Origin: a virus
Direction: 5' to 3' (one strand)
Length of the DNA: 38,459 nucleotides
Virus record (IMG/VR): IMGVR_UViG_3300025115_000030
Location: 1-38,459 of that record
Shown here: in pieces, positions 1,356 to 37,478 of the stretch
How the letters are laid out: the number at the start of each line of letters is the position of its first letter
How positions within the stretch are numbered: the first letter of the stretch is position 1
Notes under the pieces: generated by a model
What the model was told of the DNA's origin: nothing
Seen by the model: the letters and a program-made list of their open reading frames with translations, nothing else
Database searches by the model: none
Program-made: the position numbers and the translations under genes

Positions 1356-1367
1356 CTTGCTGAGGAG
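1356..1367 (+). promoter_or_regulatory. P1 leader ribosome-binding site, predicted pairing site of the 33976 RNA
   Basis: CTTGCTGAGGAG lies six to seventeen bases before ATG 1373. Its first ten bases (CTTGCTGAGG, 1356-1365) are an exact reverse complement of 34033-34042 in the loop of the candidate small RNA. They include part of the Shine-Dalgarno sequence. Flanking positions mismatch, so this is the weakest of the three trans pairings. Confidence 0.5.
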
Positions 1368-8149: not shown

Positions 8150-8187
8150 AAATAGGTGTTTACAAGCCCACTGCGTTGCACTAGAAT
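8146..8187 (+). promoter_or_regulatory. Promoter P2 (sigma70-like)
   Basis: TTTACA at 8159-8164 and TAGAAT at 8182-8187 have a 17-bp spacer. The 19 bases 8146-8164 are identical to P1, and the region just after the -10 box, CTAATCACGGTCAA, differs from P1 at one position. It overlaps the helicase stop codon and serves the operon starting at 8242. Confidence 0.87.
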
Positions 8188-8220
8188 CTAATCACGGTCA
8201 ACGCAATGGTGCTTGACTGA

Positions 8221-8237
8221 AACCTTGCTGAGGGGAT
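8221..8237 (+). promoter_or_regulatory. P2 leader ribosome-binding site, 17-nt perfect match to the 33976 RNA
   Basis: AACCTTGCTGAGGGGAT covers the Shine-Dalgarno sequence of the gene at 8242 and is the exact reverse complement of 34029-34045. Seventeen contiguous base pairs would sequester the ribosome-binding site, ending four bases before the ATG. Confidence 0.65.
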
Positions 8238-8241
8238 TACC

Positions 8242-8631
8242 ATGACCACCAAGACCTACGCTTCACGCGATTCTGCCACCTCTGCCCTGCGCAAGCTCGG
8301 CATCCAAGCCCGCGATTACGACCTCTTCATCACGAAGGTCGACGGCAAGTTCGAGTGCAAACTTGGCGCTGCCGCTGAGCACCTCGAGTCGCTCAAGAAC
8401 CCGAAGCCCAAGACCATCATCGCAGCTGCTGTCAAAGCTGCCAAGACCGAGAAGCCCAAGCGCGCTGGCATCAGCCAACTGGCCCGTGACCTGATCTTGG
8501 CTGGCCGCACCAACCAAGAGGTGTGGGCAGTCCTCAAAGACAGCTTCAACCTCGACGACTCCAAGAAGCACTACCCGACGTGGTACCGCTGCGAGATGAA
8601 GCGCAAAGGCCTGCTGCCTAAGGAGGCTTGA
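8242..8631 (+). CDS. Hypothetical protein with a C-terminal domain shared with the 9033 product
   Basis: A 129-residue basic protein and the first gene of the P2 operon. The N-terminal part begins TYASRDSATSALRKLGIQARDYD. A Lys/Ala-rich linker (residues 54-75) leads to a C-terminal helical domain (about 76-127) containing LARDLILAGRTNQEVWAVL and then HYPTWYRCEMKRKGLLP. The same layout recurs in the 9033 gene (FQDLIMQGKLTDDQIF and YTKWYRNHLKKQG), so the two are paralogous over this domain. A helix-turn-helix-like DNA-binding role is possible but not shown. Its ribosome-binding site is the best target of the small RNA at 33976. Confidence 0.75.
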   Translation: MTTKTYASRDSATSALRKLGIQARDYDLFITKVDGKFECKLGAAAEHLESLKNPKPKTIIAAAVKAAKTEKPKRAGISQLARDLILAGRTNQEVWAVLKDSFNLDDSKKHYPTWYRCEMKRKGLLPKEA

Positions 8632-10951: not shown

Positions 10952-11850
10952 GCTGCAAGCTGACGATCTTCGAGGGCCCGGACGGTGGTGGCAAATCGAC
11001 TGCCGCCCAGTCCTACGCTCAGATGACCGGCGCCAAGTACGTGCACTTCGCCTCGCTGCCCCGCGTCAGCAAGAACCTCGGTCGCATGTATGTCGAGGCC
11101 ATGACGCCGGCGCTGCTTGGCTATCAGGACGTGGTCTTCGATCGTTGCTGGCTGAGCGAGATGCCGTACGGCGTCGCGTTCCGTGAGGGCAAGGATCGCC
11201 TGACGTCGGCCAGCCGGCGGATGCTCGAGCGTCTGGCCATGCGGTGCGGAGCCGTTGTGGTCAAGTGCCAGCCCAGCTGGGAGACCGTCAAGGCCAACTA
11301 CCTCAGCCGCAAGCACATCGAGATGCTGGACAACGAGCACCAGCTCAAGACGGTGTACGACCTATACTCTGAGCAGCCGACGGACCTGCCGTTGGTGGAC
11401 TACGACTACACGAAGGGCGACCTGTTCGAGGTCAGCAAGCTGGCTCTGCTGATCGATGGCCTGCGCATGCGCCAGCATCCGCTTGATCTGGCTTCAGCTG
11501 GCAACTGGGATGCGCGGGTCGTGCTGATCGGCGAGTCGTTTGCTGAGCGCAAGGACAACGATCCCTGGTACCAGTGGCCCTTCGCCTCGTTCAGCAGCGA
11601 GGGCTGTAGCCAGTGGCTGGCCAATCAGTTGGATCTGGTTGAGGTTGGCGAGGACGACATCCTCTGGCTGAACTCCGATCAGGACCTGTCGGTGCTCTAC
11701 GACCTGAACCCTGAGCGCATCATCACGCTCGGCACCGAGGCCTACCAGCAGCTGTACCGGCTGAAGATCAAGGCGGCAAGTGTCCAACACCCGCAGAACT
11801 GGAAGCGATTCAAACACGGCCAGCGGTATCCGCTGCTGGACCTCATCTAA
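10939..11850 (+). CDS. Deoxynucleotide kinase-like P-loop protein fused to a UDG-like C-terminal domain
   Basis: A 303-residue fusion from ATG 10939. The N-terminal half is a thymidylate/deoxynucleoside kinase-like P-loop fold: FEGPDGGGKST (Lys19), VVFDRCWLSEMPYG as the DR...S...YG motif, and a lid-like SRKHIEML. The C-terminal half, from about residue 185, begins ARVVLIGESFAER, continues with a helical SEGCSQWLANQL, then RIITLGTEAYQQL, and ends VQHPQNWKRF. Its GxS, LG and HP motifs are reminiscent of the uracil-DNA glycosylase superfamily, although the catalytic residues are not clear. Such kinase fusions occur in phages with altered bases. The start overlaps the MazG gene by 13 nt. Confidence 0.7.
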   Translation: MDQVSCKLTIFEGPDGGGKSTAAQSYAQMTGAKYVHFASLPRVSKNLGRMYVEAMTPALLGYQDVVFDRCWLSEMPYGVAFREGKDRLTSASRRMLERLAMRCGAVVVKCQPSWETVKANYLSRKHIEMLDNEHQLKTVYDLYSEQPTDLPLVDYDYTKGDLFEVSKLALLIDGLRMRQHPLDLASAGNWDARVVLIGESFAERKDNDPWYQWPFASFSSEGCSQWLANQLDLVEVGEDDILWLNSDQDLSVLYDLNPERIITLGTEAYQQLYRLKIKAASVQHPQNWKRFKHGQRYPLLDLI

Positions 11851-11860
11851 GGAGCACGGC

Positions 11861-12643
11861 ATGGACTTTTCACGAGTATGGCTCAATGCCATCAACGACA
11901 TCTTGGCCAACGGGGATCTGGTATCGCCCAGGGGCAAGTTGACCAAGGAGATTCCTCAGCGTACCATTGAGGTCGACATGCGGAAACCGGTGCTCCGCGT
12001 GCCTGATCGCAGCCTGAGCTACAAGTTCATGGTGGCCGAGGCGTTCTGGATCCTGTCTGGTGACGACCGGGTCGAGACCATCGCCCCATACAACAGCCGC
12101 ATCGCCGCCTTCTCAGACGACGGTGAACGGTTTTTCGGTGCCTACGGCCCCAAGATCGTGGCGCAACTGCCGTACATCATCGAGAAACTGCAGGCCGATG
12201 AGGACAGTCGGCAAGCTGGCCTGACCATCTGGCGTGAGTGCCCGCCTAACACCAAGGACGTGCCATGCACGGTGGCGGTGTTCTTTAATATCCGCAGCGG
12301 CAAGCTCAATGCCCACGTGTTCATGCGGTCAAGCGACGTCTGGCTGGGCGTGCCGTACGACGTCTTCAACTTCAGCATGCTTAGCCACCTAGTCTGCGGC
12401 CTGCTGAACGAGCACCGGCTGACTGCCGACGCTGTGTCACCCGGTCGGTTGTTCTTGACGGCGGCCAGCAGCCACCTGTACGAGACCAACTGGGACGACG
12501 CGAAGATGTGCCTTGGTAGCACGGTGCTTGATCAAATCGAGACGCCAAAACTGCTCTGGAACGACCCGCAGTTCCTCATGTCCGAGCTCAAGGATCTGCG
12601 TGACAGCCGGCCTGGCGACGCGCGTCGCTGGTGGGAGGTGTAA
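11861..12643 (+). CDS. ThyA-family enzyme, predicted dCMP hydroxymethylase or methylase type
   Basis: A 260-residue thymidylate synthase fold started at ATG 11861 after AAGGAG. Visible are Glu60 in EAFWILSG, the catalytic Cys136 in DVPCT (the usual Cys-His is Cys-Thr here), RSSD at 156-159 and a SHLYETNWDD tyrosine motif. At the substrate-specificity position, GVPYDVF has Asp167 where dUMP-specific ThyA has Asn (E. coli Asn177, GLPFN). Asp at this site is the hallmark of dCMP hydroxymethylases such as T4 gp42. Since the window also encodes ThyX, this enzyme probably makes a modified dCMP rather than dTMP. Confidence 0.8.
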   Translation: MDFSRVWLNAINDILANGDLVSPRGKLTKEIPQRTIEVDMRKPVLRVPDRSLSYKFMVAEAFWILSGDDRVETIAPYNSRIAAFSDDGERFFGAYGPKIVAQLPYIIEKLQADEDSRQAGLTIWRECPPNTKDVPCTVAVFFNIRSGKLNAHVFMRSSDVWLGVPYDVFNFSMLSHLVCGLLNEHRLTADAVSPGRLFLTAASSHLYETNWDDAKMCLGSTVLDQIETPKLLWNDPQFLMSELKDLRDSRPGDARRWWEV

Positions 12644-33493: not shown

Positions 33494-33522
33494 TTTACAG
33501 GTCATTCAATATAGAATATGAT
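33494..33522 (+). promoter_or_regulatory. Promoter P5 (rightward)
   Basis: TTTACA (33494-33499) and TATGAT (33517-33522) with a 17-bp spacer, 24 bases before ATG 33547. A second possible -10, TAGAAT, overlaps it. It is the first rightward promoter of the divergent region, so probably immediate early. Confidence 0.85.
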
Positions 33523-33546
33523 TTGTCACTTTACAGGAGAAAGACC

Positions 33547-33933
33547 ATGGCCCCAGAACTTATCAATTTGCTCCAACACTTGGTGGATGCGCTTCCAAGC
33601 GCCAAGCGCCAAGCGCCACAAGAACTGCTCGAACTGGTCAAATTACAAGTCCCAAAGCCTCGTTGGGACGAGGAGCAGCGGGCCAAACAATCGAAGACCA
33701 TTTCAGAATACTGGTCCAAGCGACGTGTCGAGCAACCATTCCAACTCAAATACCGGGACGGAACCACTCGGCAAATTCAAGGTTGGGAGGCTGTAGCTAA
33801 GCTTGCAGGTGTCAAAGAGTCAACACTCAAGATCAAGTTCTCTAAGGCCGGAGGACTTCGTGCGCAGTTCTTCGATCAAGAATCCATGGAGGTGGTAGAC
33901 ATCATCAAGTTGCCTTACGGGCAGGAGAAATAA
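33547..33933 (+). CDS. Putative early regulator with helix-turn-helix-like segment
   Basis: A 128-residue protein from ATG 33547 behind AGGAGA. The basic middle (EEQRAKQSKTISEYWSKRR) is followed by a segment GWEAVAKLAGVKESTLKIKFSKAGG that reads like a helix-turn-helix. It is the first rightward gene beside the divergent late and early promoters, the usual place of a phage regulator, so it could be the protein that binds the 21-bp operators; this is inference. Three tandem copies of the heptamer CCAAGCG occur in codons 17-23 (33595-33615). No named family is recognised. Confidence 0.7.
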   Translation: MAPELINLLQHLVDALPSAKRQAPQELLELVKLQVPKPRWDEEQRAKQSKTISEYWSKRRVEQPFQLKYRDGTTRQIQGWEAVAKLAGVKESTLKIKFSKAGGLRAQFFDQESMEVVDIIKLPYGQEK

Positions 33934-33940
33934 CCCACCG

Positions 33941-33969
33941 TTTACGTCTGGCAATAATCGAACTAGAAT
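33941..33969 (+). promoter_or_regulatory. Promoter P4 (rightward)
   Basis: TTTACG (33941-33946) and TAGAAT (33964-33969) with a 17-bp spacer, directly after the 33547 gene. The expected start near 33976 coincides with the base of the long RNA stem that begins at 33977. Confidence 0.82.
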
Positions 33970-33975
33970 TTGTCT

Positions 33976-34068
33976 TGGCCGCCCCGGTCGTGACGTCTCC
34001 TTCGGTTGTTAAACCATGGTCCGCGTCGATCCCCTCAGCAAGGTTCATGGTCGGGGTGGCCACCTTTT
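33976..34068 (+). ncRNA. Candidate antisense small RNA with anti-Shine-Dalgarno loop
   Basis: From the start expected for P4, bases 33977-33993 pair without interruption with 34045-34061. This gives 17 pairs, including four G-U wobbles (81/57, 87/51, 88/50, 90/48 in last digits). The stem is followed by ACC-UUUU (34062-34068), similar to an intrinsic terminator. The 51-nt loop has a small CCUU/AAGG helix (33999-34002/34040-34043) and a GGUU-GUUA-AACC hairpin, leaving GAUCCCCUCAGC mainly single-stranded. Bases 34029-34045 are the exact complement of the ribosome-binding site of the gene at 8242; 34028-34040 of the 36282 leader; 34033-34042 of the leader at 1356. It could also act as a cis leader of the primase gene. 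Confidence 0.6.
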
Positions 34069-34086
34069 CATGCGGCTGAGCGCATG
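34069..34086 (+). other. Second hairpin in the primase leader
   Basis: CATGCG (34069-34074) and CGCATG (34081-34086) form a 6-bp stem with loop GCTGAG, directly after the candidate small RNA. Downstream TGCTGAGG at 34095-34102 is complementary to CCTCAGCA at 34033-34040, so a read-through transcript could also refold on itself. Confidence 0.5.
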
Positions 34087-34108
34087 GTAGGCCGATGCTG
34101 AGGCGGCT

Positions 34109-34195
34109 ATGATCGACGAATTGAGGACCGAAACACAATGGCAACCACAAGAAAGAAGACGGCACCAGCCGCCGACCACAAAGCGCTCGCCCTAG
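34109..34195 (+). CDS. Possible 28-codon leader ORF overlapping the primase start
   Basis: ATG 34109 follows TGAGG with good spacing, in a context resembling the P1 and P2 leaders (TGCTGAGGCGGCTATG). It reads MIDELRTETQWQPQERRRHQ and ends at TAG 34193-34195, overlapping the primase gene in another frame. It may be a translated leader peptide that controls the primase, or chance. No homologue is expected. Confidence 0.3.
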   Translation: MIDELRTETQWQPQERRRHQPPTTKRSP

Positions 34196-36237
34196 GCGAA
34201 GCCAAGCTCAAATCAAGCGGGCTCACGCTCGACGACGCCAAGCTGCTTAGTATGCACTGCTTAGGAGCCCAGCAGACGGCGGCTCAGCACCAAGCATTCA
34301 AGCAGCTTTGTAGTCTCCGCATCGATTACCTAGACCCTGACGGCAAACCCCTCAGCGACTGGCCGGGCAGCAAGCCCTTCTACCGCCTCAGGTACCTCGA
34401 GACCGCAACTGACTTCTCATCGATGACTGAGAAGAAGCCAGTCAGGTACGTGCAAGAACCCAACACGGCGCCCGTCGCCTACTACCCAGCCAACCAAGAC
34501 TGGTCTGGTCTGCTTGGCGACACCGACCAACCCTTGATCCTCACTGAGGGCGAACTCAAAGCCGCCAAGGCCTGCAAGGAAGGCTTCCCCACCATCGGGC
34601 TGGGTGGCGTGTACAACTGGCGCAGCCACAAACTCGGCGTCGATTGGCTCCCCAGCCTCGACCTCGTGCGGTGGCTCAAGCGTAACGTTTACATCTGCTT
34701 CGACTCGGACTACAAGACCAACCCCATGGTCTGCGCGGCTTTGCGTGAACTGGCTGAGGAGTTGCATCGGCGCGGGTGCTTCGTGCATCTGGTCTCGCTG
34801 CCGCAGCTACCAGGCCTTGAGAAGGTAGGGCTTGATGACTTCCTCGTCCACGCCGGACCCTCAGCCGTCACGATGTTCCGCGGCTTGCTCACGGAGGCTG
34901 AGCCCCTGGGGCTGACGGCTCCGCTGTGGTCGCTGAACGACAAGTACGTCTACGTGCAAGACCCGGGTCTCATCGTCGATCAAGACACCCGGTTCAAGGC
35001 TTCACCATCTGCCTTCAAGGAGCACCTGCAGGCGCCTCTCAACTACCATGAGCGAAACCTCAAGCAGGATGGCGCGGTCAGCTTTAAGGCGGTCTCGGCA
35101 GCTGCCGCTTGGTTGCGCTGGCCCTTGCGCACGGAGGTCACGAAGCTCACCTACCAGCCTGGGTCTGAGCGCTTCATCACGGAGCCGAGGCCTATGTTCA
35201 ACATCTGGCCGGGCTGGGGTGTCGAACCGGTTGAGGACGACGTCAGTCTGTTCCTGCAGCTTGTCGACCACATCTTCACGAACGCCGAACCTGAGGCCAA
35301 GCAGTGGTTCCTGCGCTGGTGCGCTTACCCCTTGCAGCACCCGGGTGTCAAGTTGTTCAGCTCGGTCGTCATCCACGGCATCCGCCACGGTACAGGTAAG
35401 TCACTGCTGGGCTACACGCTGGCCCGGATCTACGGGAAGAACTTCACCGAGATTAGCCAGATGGATCTGCACGGCGCCTTCAACGAGTGGGCCGAGGGCA
35501 AGCAGTTCGTCATGGGCGACGACGTGACCGGCTCGAACAAGCGGCAGGATGCCGACTTCCTCAAGAAGCTCATCACGCAGCGGGAGCTCCGCGTCAACGG
35601 CAAGTACGTGCCTACCTACACGGTGCCGGACTGCATCAACTACTTCTTCACCGCCAATCACCCGGATTCGTTCTTCTTGGAAGACGACGACCGGCGCTTC
35701 TTCATCCACGAGGTGCAAGTCGGCCCCATGGACGAGGCGTTCTACATGGAGTACGACTTGTGGCTGGACACGGGCGGCTCGGCTGCGGTGTTCGACTACC
35801 TGCTGAACCTGGACCTGGGCGACTTCAACCCGGCAGCCCCGGCCTTCAAGACGGCAGCCAAGGAGCGGATGATCGCCAACGTGCAATCGGACCTAGCCGG
35901 TTGGGTGCGCATGCTCCTGGCGACCCCGGACCACGTGCTGCGGGTCGGGGAGCTGGTCATCGACAAGGACTTGTTCACCAGCAAGGAGCTGCTGCAGTTC
36001 TACGACCCAACTGGGCGGACCGGCACCACAGCCAACGGGCTGGGTCGCGAGCTGGCGCGGGCCGGGGTCAGGCAGGTCTGCAACGGGAAGCCGGTGCGCT
36101 TGGCCGATGGGTCTCAGGGCCGGTTCTACGCGGTGCGGAACGTGGACCACTGGCTCACGGCTGTTGGGCCCCTTGTGATCGAGCACCTGAACAAGTGGGA
36201 CAAGAAGCAAAGCGGGCAAAAAGCCGCAAAATATTGA
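34138..36237 (+). CDS. Primase-helicase (TOPRIM-like domain plus SF3-type helicase)
   Basis: A 699-residue bifunctional replication protein. The N-terminal half carries a TOPRIM-like fold of the DUF3854 type: LILTEGELKAAKA with Glu137, then VYICFDSD with Asp189 and Asp191. The C-terminal half is an AAA/SF3 helicase (DUF5906-like) with Walker A GIRHGTGKSLL (Lys421), Walker B region KQFVMGDDV, and the later TANHPDSFFLEDDDRRFF. It would unwind the fork and prime lagging-strand synthesis for the family A polymerase. No N-terminal zinc finger of T7 gp4 type is visible. The stop lies in the TTGAAA of promoter P3. Confidence 0.9.
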   Translation: MATTRKKTAPAADHKALALGEAKLKSSGLTLDDAKLLSMHCLGAQQTAAQHQAFKQLCSLRIDYLDPDGKPLSDWPGSKPFYRLRYLETATDFSSMTEKKPVRYVQEPNTAPVAYYPANQDWSGLLGDTDQPLILTEGELKAAKACKEGFPTIGLGGVYNWRSHKLGVDWLPSLDLVRWLKRNVYICFDSDYKTNPMVCAALRELAEELHRRGCFVHLVSLPQLPGLEKVGLDDFLVHAGPSAVTMFRGLLTEAEPLGLTAPLWSLNDKYVYVQDPGLIVDQDTRFKASPSAFKEHLQAPLNYHERNLKQDGAVSFKAVSAAAAWLRWPLRTEVTKLTYQPGSERFITEPRPMFNIWPGWGVEPVEDDVSLFLQLVDHIFTNAEPEAKQWFLRWCAYPLQHPGVKLFSSVVIHGIRHGTGKSLLGYTLARIYGKNFTEISQMDLHGAFNEWAEGKQFVMGDDVTGSNKRQDADFLKKLITQRELRVNGKYVPTYTVPDCINYFFTANHPDSFFLEDDDRRFFIHEVQVGPMDEAFYMEYDLWLDTGGSAAVFDYLLNLDLGDFNPAAPAFKTAAKERMIANVQSDLAGWVRMLLATPDHVLRVGELVIDKDLFTSKELLQFYDPTGRTGTTANGLGRELARAGVRQVCNGKPVRLADGSQGRFYAVRNVDHWLTAVGPLVIEHLNKWDKKQSGQKAAKY

Positions 36238-36281: not shown

Positions 36282-36294
36282 TGCTGAGGGGATC
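36282..36294 (+). promoter_or_regulatory. P3 leader 5' end, 13-nt match to the 33976 RNA
   Basis: TGCTGAGGGGATC is the exact reverse complement of 34028-34040. It lies at the expected 5' end of the P3 transcript, 35 bases before ATG 36330, and not over the GGAG that serves that gene. Pairing here might affect stability or leader folding. Confidence 0.55.
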
Positions 36295-36329: not shown

Positions 36330-36521
36330 ATGAGCAAATTGCTGCAAGACGAGAAAGTCGCCGCCCTGGTCGAGAAGGAAGTCACCAAGGCCGTGAAGGC
36401 CGAGACCAAGCGTGTCCTGACCGTGATCAAGGAAGCCGAGCTGCCCGAGGACAAGGCCGCTGCGAAGGCTGCGAAGGAAGTCATCAAGGGCATCGTCGCC
36501 GGTATCAAGGAAGCTGCCTAA
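36330..36521 (+). CDS. Small helical Lys/Ala-rich protein
   Basis: A 63-residue protein from ATG 36330 behind TTGGAG. It is one long predicted helix, rich in Lys, Ala, Glu and Val (KVAALVEKEVTKAVKAETKR and AAAKAAKEVIKGIVAGIKEA). It stands alone between promoter P3 and a strong terminator, so it is made as a short, abundant monocistronic message. High expression and the histone-like composition suggest a DNA-associated or host-takeover protein; no family is recognised. Confidence 0.8.
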   Translation: MSKLLQDEKVAALVEKEVTKAVKAETKRVLTVIKEAELPEDKAAAKAAKEVIKGIVAGIKEAA

Positions 36522-36600: not shown

Positions 36601-36813
36601 ATGCGCTGCTATCTGGTAACAGGCCCGGGCGCCAAGCGCTACGCGGCCACGAACGCGGATGCTCGCGCCAAGCGTGACGAGCTGGTCGAGCAGCTGGGCT
36701 GCAAGAAGAAGGACGTCGAGATTGAGCAGACCGGCGTGCCGACCGCCAAGGCCGAGCTGCTCGAGTTTATCAACGGCCTGTGCGCTGAGCTCGACGAGGG
36801 CGAAGAGTCATGA
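36601..36813 (+). CDS. Hypothetical small protein
   Basis: A 70-residue protein with a good AAGGAG ribosome-binding site at 36589-36594. It begins MRCYLVTGPGAKRYAATNADA, then has a helical charged middle (RAKRDELVEQLGCKKKDVEIEQ) and an acidic tail ELDEGEES. Two Cys are present but no metal motif. The family is unknown. It overlaps ThyX by four bases and begins the operon that runs across the genome junction. Confidence 0.8.
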   Translation: MRCYLVTGPGAKRYAATNADARAKRDELVEQLGCKKKDVEIEQTGVPTAKAELLEFINGLCAELDEGEES

Positions 36814-37478
36814 GCCAAGTCCGTCTGATCGCTTTCACGCAGCCCATCGAGCTTGATGGCGTTCAGACGGGCGAGGAGCTGGTGGCCTACTGCGCTCGGG
36901 TCTCGAACCCGAGCAACCAAGCCAACCACGAGACGGCCCCTCGTCTGCTGAACTACCTGACTCGCAACCACCACTGGTCGCCGTTCGAGATGGCCCACGC
37001 CGTCATGGAGATCCAGACAACCCGCGACATCGCCCGGCAGATTCTGCGCCACCGCTCGTTCTCGTTCCAAGAGTTCAGCCAGCGGTACGCCGAGGTCACC
37101 GACGATGTGATGCTCCGCGAAGCCCGTCTGCAAGACACCAAGAACCGCCAGAACAGCACTGAGACCGATGATGCTGAGTTGCAACGCCAGTGGTGCACGC
37201 TGCAAAGCCGAACAGCTGAGCTGACCCGCCAGACCTACCAGTGGGCCTTGGAGCAAGGTATCGCGAAGGAGGTGGCCAGGGCGGTCTTGCCTGAGGGCCT
37301 GACCGTCAGCCGGTTGTACATGGCAGGTTCGATCCGCAGTTGGATTCACTACATCCAACTCCGTGCCGGCAACGGTACCCAGAAGGAGCATCGTGAGCTT
37401 GCGGTCATGTGCCGCCTCGCTCTGCTCCATGTCATGCCCTCACTCAAGGAGATTCTCGATGCAACGCAAGACCACTAA
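36810..37478 (+). CDS. thyX: Flavin-dependent thymidylate synthase
   Basis: A 222-residue ThyX, which makes dTMP from dUMP using methylenetetrahydrofolate and FAD. The signature RHRxxSxxxxSxRY is exact as RHRSFSFQEFSQRY (residues 80-93). Also visible are NHHWSPFEMAHAVMEI before it and the C-terminal AGSIRSWIHYIQLRAG. The start overlaps the stop of the 36601 gene. Since the window also holds a ThyA-fold enzyme with an altered specificity residue, ThyX is the likely source of dTMP. Confidence 0.96.
   Translation: MSQVRLIAFTQPIELDGVQTGEELVAYCARVSNPSNQANHETAPRLLNYLTRNHHWSPFEMAHAVMEIQTTRDIARQILRHRSFSFQEFSQRYAEVTDDVMLREARLQDTKNRQNSTETDDAELQRQWCTLQSRTAELTRQTYQWALEQGIAKEVARAVLPEGLTVSRLYMAGSIRSWIHYIQLRAGNGTQKEHRELAVMCRLALLHVMPSLKEILDATQDH

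Follow-up and report, generated by a model that had tools for sequence, protein, structure and literature searches.

A structured RNA upstream of a phage primase gene with a loop complementary to replication operon leaders

What is encoded just upstream of the DNA primase gene of an IMG/VR phage contig, and does it act on that gene only or also on other operons of the same phage? The window (the whole stretch of DNA that was analysed, 38,459 bases) carries replication genes on the + strand and head and tail genes on the - strand, and a near-identity search of phage records with it returned no match. An earlier note had placed at this locus a discrete antisense small RNA of a lytic phage, about 90 nt long and ending at 34068, which would pair with the ribosome-binding sites of several operons. 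Directly upstream lies a short reading frame (33523-33933, + strand) with a promoter-like site at 33494-33522 and without a PHROGs/Pfam match. GC skew, inspected for an origin of replication, has no clear extremum at the element. Elsewhere on the + strand both a ThyA-type and a ThyX-type thymidylate synthase are encoded (11780-12643 and 36810-37478), an unusual pairing.

A conserved element before the primase gene

The element spans positions 33976-34131, and thus extends beyond the end at 34068 assigned to it before, through hairpins HP2 and HP3 to a long-range strand, A', at the primase Shine-Dalgarno (Table 1). It was found upstream of the primase in ~45 related phage contigs, mostly from uncultured phages, and the set used comprised 39 dereplicated copies. 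Among primase relatives in IMG/VR with upstream DNA, most have the same element before the gene. Two isolates, Stenotrophomonas phage AXL3 (on the minus strand, near 46599-46794 of NC_071036.1) and Pseudoxanthomonas phage PW916 (its record is filed under Mesyanzhinovviridae), carry it too, as does the assembled genome ctUtU524. A gapped-pattern scan gave further, more distant copies. Because the search patterns contained CCTCAGCA and GCTGAG(G), the conservation of these letters is partly due to selection by the search, as is the invariance of loop B, constant except for one letter across the 39 copies; the helices are unaffected. In four relatives (L003, L006, L012 and L030) an HNH-endonuclease-like reading frame lies between the intact element and the primase.

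A covariance model built from 25 copies recovered most of the held-out ones at E 1e-10 to 1e-16, reached E 4e-6 on ctUtU524 and matched AXL3-type copies weakly (2e-4 to 5e-3), with no significant match in distant Pseudomonas and Vibrio phages that bear weakly similar primases. Neither the window nor the elements taken from six further loci matched any Rfam family at the gathering score, and a permissive Rfam scan of the element region produced only a chance-level match outside the element. The openly accessible literature that was searched contained no description of it. By these comparisons, the element is an RNA family absent from Rfam.

As judged from sequence comparison, the structural evidence for a conserved RNA is very strong. 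Beyond its base, stem P1 is hardly conserved in sequence, and every copy pairs with itself: own against swapped partners gave z=20 (0/20000 permutations) for this stem, z=12.4 for HP2 and z=8.2 for HP3. The long-range helix A:A' over the primase Shine-Dalgarno covaries as well (z=8.9 across 31 copies), and the stem closing loop B reached only z=3.0 in the swapped-partner test. RNAalifold on an ordinary MAFFT alignment independently yielded stem P1 and HP2, with 16/17 pairs changed on both sides. Covariation of the stem, proposed earlier as a check, is thus overwhelming. The stem itself, described as 17 bp followed by UUUU, is real but one pair longer, with its four G-U pairs in place, and CC precedes the UUUU at 34065-34068. 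When folded alone, the first 101 nt form stem P1 (z = -3.0 against shuffles), and in the MFE structure of the whole leader the long-range helix lies over the primase Shine-Dalgarno. The folding energy of the whole leader is not unusual against shuffles (z=-0.16), so that the case is built on covariation and not on energy.

Table 1. Positions of the element's parts, its leader targets and the primase gene in the window
Feature	Position	Strand	Remarks
Element promoter, TTTACG (33941-33946)-17-TAGAAT (33964-33969)	33941-33969	+	expected start ~33976, base of stem P1
Stem P1, 5' strand	33976-33993	+	18 bp with 34045-34062, 4 G-U; covariation, RNAalifold
Small variable hairpin inside stem P1, GGUU-GUUA-AACC	34004-34015	+	folding alone
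Strand A (GGUCC and CGUCGAUC)	34018-34031	+	long-range partner of primase start region 34111-34118 and 34125-34129; covariation, whole-leader MFE
Short stem closing loop B	34028-34032/34042-34046	+	imperfect in the window; z=3
Loop B, CCUCAGCAA	34033-34041	+	complement of leader motif UUGCUGAGG
Stem P1, 3' strand	34045-34062	+	covariation, RNAalifold
CCUUUU after stem P1	34063-34068	+	weak; not conserved as terminator
Hairpin HP2, loop GCUGAG	34069-34086	+	loop complementary to loop B; covariation, RNAalifold
Hairpin HP3, loop AUGCUGAGG	34090-34108	+	loop complementary to loop B; covariation
Strand A' (GAUCGACG ... GGACC)	34111-34129	+	overlaps primase Shine-Dalgarno GAGGA 34123-34127; covariation, folding
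DNA primase gene	34138-36237	+	cis target of the element (predicted)
Leader target P1, CTTGCTGAGG	1356-1365	+	Shine-Dalgarno of gene at 1373 (DUF7307-like)
Leader target P2, AACCTTGCTGAGGGGAT	8221-8237	+	Shine-Dalgarno of gene at 8242; best window duplex after the element itself
Leader target P3, TGCTGAGGGGATC	36282-36294	+	mRNA 5' end, not ribosome-binding site; gene at 36330

The loop and the leaders of other operons

The complements of the loop reported before in the leaders behind promoters P1, P2 and P3 are exact, over 10, 17 and 13 nt, respectively. The 17-nt match is beyond chance, since the longest match of 40 shuffled loops, with both strands considered, was 13 nt. The earlier note speaks of pairing with ribosome-binding sites, which is right for the sites in the P1 and P2 leaders but not for the third, located at about +6 of the P3 transcript, whose gene has its own GGAG. 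When sites in the window were ranked by duplex with the loop, the P2 and P3 leaders were the two best and the P1 leader fell outside the top eight; in other genomes leaders are over-represented among the top sites, yet not exclusive.

In counts that pool related genomes, and so do not represent independent events, no 7-mer is more frequent than GCTGAGG in the 110 nt that follow phage promoters: 93/162 of these stretches contain it. It occurs in 2/162 stretches upstream of promoters, and its complement in 1/162. Leaders with the motif number 90 on the strand of the element and 3 on the opposite one, a ratio that is descriptive because many opposite-strand promoter matches may be chance. In three element-bearing phages GCTGAGG is the commonest Shine-Dalgarno of the GAGG type (26/183), whereas in three distantly related phages without the element it accounts for 3/155 and is not the commonest. 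Promoter-defined leaders were adopted because a test of all ATG-preceded NNNGAGG sites in the window alone was noisy (GCT 2/37, not significant). A second conserved feature was observed in P1- and P2-type leaders (1329-1365 and 8171-8237 in the window), namely a 5'-terminal hairpin, CACGGUCAA...GACCG, just before UUGCUGAGG. Leaders with the same hairpin occur in genomes G003, G004, G009 and others, and in G004 its stem is altered on both sides (CGAACAA/UUGUUCG).

How much of the match is kept can be seen in G002, a genome with a primase 98% identical, in which the P2 and P3 leaders are the same and the flanks of the loop differ, leaving an 11-nt match. Selection on the full 17 nt is therefore not borne out. 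Change of the loop against fixed leaders, named by the earlier note as an outcome that would speak against its proposal, occurs in the flanks but not in the core. Comparison of these genomes points to a conserved loop-leader match of about 9-11 nt, the 17 nt being lineage-specific.

Inside the element, the loop of HP3 contains UGCUGAGG, which is also complementary to loop B, and the two kinds of partner can be told apart at one position. Loop position +2 is A in 38/39 copies; position -2 is T in 38/59 leaders and in 3/39 HP3 hairpins (p=8e-9). As the AA of the loop complements the UU of the leaders but not the cis hairpin HP3, loop B fits the trans leaders better and looks tuned to trans targets. 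Pairing of each loop with its own leaders is longer than with swapped ones (p ~0.002, a modest effect from a statistic that ignores phylogeny), and covariation of the loop flanks is weak. In ctUtU524 the loop reads CCUCAGCAG and 3/4 leaders CUGCUGAGG; these letters would fit a compensatory change, but P3-type leaders elsewhere carry that C too.

This bears on the foremost alternative, which we consider unlikely: a purely cis-acting leader, pseudoknotted or two-state, that regulates the primase only, GCUGAGG elsewhere being a preferred ribosome-binding sequence. The match of loop AA to leader UU and not to HP3 argues against such a leader, as does the motif itself, which extends 5' of the Shine-Dalgarno core and does not coincide with the ribosome-binding site in P3-type leaders. 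On the other side stand the strongly covarying helix over the primase Shine-Dalgarno, which is also the predicted whole-leader fold, and the result that no conserved intrinsic terminator able to release a small RNA was found after stem P1 in the 39 dereplicated copies; moreover, part of the loop-leader match is expected because GAGG is itself a Shine-Dalgarno and the trans core is short.

The transcript and its proposed regulation

A TTTACn/TAnnnT promoter lies 5-8 nt before stem P1 in 29/39 dereplicated copies, and the RNA should therefore start at the base of this stem; promoter P4, placed ahead of the RNA by the earlier note, was confirmed in the window. At the other end the U-tract after stem P1 is poor and variable, with a longest T run of 1 to 6, usually 2-4, mostly after a spacer of 2-3 nt. 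This poor U-tract, together with conservation into the primase start, leads us to interpret the element as the primase 5' leader; at a minimum it probably serves the primase mRNA as a leader in cis, and a separate small RNA would be possible only through processing or weak or partial termination after stem P1.

The proposal of a discrete, intrinsically terminated antisense RNA of ~90 nt ending at 34068 and acting in trans only has thus become improbable: the U-run is short or spaced in most copies and not conserved, and covarying conservation does not stop at stem P1 but includes HP2, HP3 and A' as far as the primase start, even if the window has an 18-bp stem followed by CCUUUU, a few copies carry 5-6 U and the 5' 101 nt fold well alone. 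What survives of the antisense proposal is that a conserved RNA carries, in a loop, the complement of most replication-strand operon leaders. That GCUGAGG, found in the HP2 and HP3 loops and in single-stranded leaders, is the site of an RNA-binding protein or antitermination factor and merely masked in cis by loop B is very improbable, since this would not predict the match of loop AA to leader UU, and no candidate protein was identified.

The best explanation, to which we assign a probability of roughly 55%, is that the element is a structured riboregulator forming the 5' leader of the primase mRNA, with control of the primase in cis and an anti-leader loop that acts in trans. From the helices and from the loop complements in the leaders, both established by comparison, we infer the two kinds of control. 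Stem P1, at the start of the transcript, would display the anti-leader loop CCUCAGCAA. In cis, the strand beside the loop would pair with the primase start region and hold primase translation down. In trans, the displayed loop would pair with UUGCUGAGG leaders through ~9-11 nt, in most cases at the Shine-Dalgarno; this pairing would lower translation of the targets, and one RNA could in this manner balance early and replication operons.

The energies with stem P1 forced and with it blocked differ by a median of -0.9 kcal/mol over the 39 copies, and these two folds of similar energy suggest a cis/trans switch in the modelled RNA. Stem P1 and the long-range helix share no bases, however, and could coexist in a pseudoknot, a form beyond the folding programs used. 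A bolder, rather doubtful version of the riboregulator is a two-state switch, in which one fold would hide both the primase start and the antisense loop, and the other would free the primase and repress the replication-strand operons. Abundant target mRNAs would bind the loop and so switch the primase on. If true, the early messages of the phage would be sensed and kept in balance by a single RNA, with no need of a protein repressor.

Known leader-complementary RNAs and biological meaning

Leader-antisense RNAs belong mainly to temperate phages and satellites and usually have few targets. Phage P4 is temperate, and its CI RNA, encoded upstream of the primase operon on a transcript that also carries complementary sequences, gives immunity by premature termination. 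The element resembles P4 CI (and phi-R73) in being a leader-complementary RNA upstream of a primase with complements on the same transcript, and differs in that several operons share the target and in that the cis strand covers the Shine-Dalgarno. Phages P1, P7, N15, P4 and phi-R73 have known RNAs of the leader-complementary kind, and such an RNA has been suggested for PLE (PMC7567579, PMC12197685); the leader complementarity of the P4 CI RNA is stated in PMC7567579. The structured c4 RNA prevents translation through loops whose sequences base-pair in the region of a ribosome-binding site (PMC12197685). In this the element is like c4 of phages P1 and P7 and the related system of N15; c4, in contrast, acts on a single gene, ant, in the control of lysogeny, whereas the element faces multiple operons in apparently virulent phages. 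The PLE inter-inverted-repeat (IIR) transcript is non-coding with antisense similarity to the leaders of several of its own reading frames (PMC7567579); it is a satellite RNA of putative function, likened here by description only to an element from a tailed virulent phage.

The closest known kind is that of the P4 CI and phage P1 c4 RNAs: like them, the element is a structured phage RNA with a loop complementary to leaders and ribosome-binding sites of the phage's own genes. No homology to P4 CI emerged: the covariance model had no match in the P4 genome up to E=10, and P4 is without CCTCAGC. Nor did c4 or another Rfam family match at the Rfam gathering score. If our inference holds, the element would act like the known leader-complementary RNAs without being, by the tests made, their homologue.

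The carriers of the element, lytic phages in the earlier view, look virulent. AXL3 is reported to be virulent and to have no lysogeny genes, with pseudolysogeny not excluded (PMC7504290), and no integrase or repressor was found among the subset of window ORFs searched. A search of genome contigs with one pattern gave no chromosomal copy, its sole true match being the same element as in sulfidic-cave phage contig L022. The element of L217 (DYMC01000001.1), binned as Lentisphaera, is identical to that of L022, and therefore L217 is probably a phage contig and not host chromosome.

Taken as a whole, the sequence evidence suggests that one RNA helps to coordinate the translation of phage replication genes. 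With the element comes a new RNA family in which compensatory mutations provide a ready test, directly applicable in the isolate AXL3. Should the link between this conserved RNA and a leader motif shared by the replication operons hold true, these apparently virulent phages would possess a phage-wide post-transcriptional regulon.
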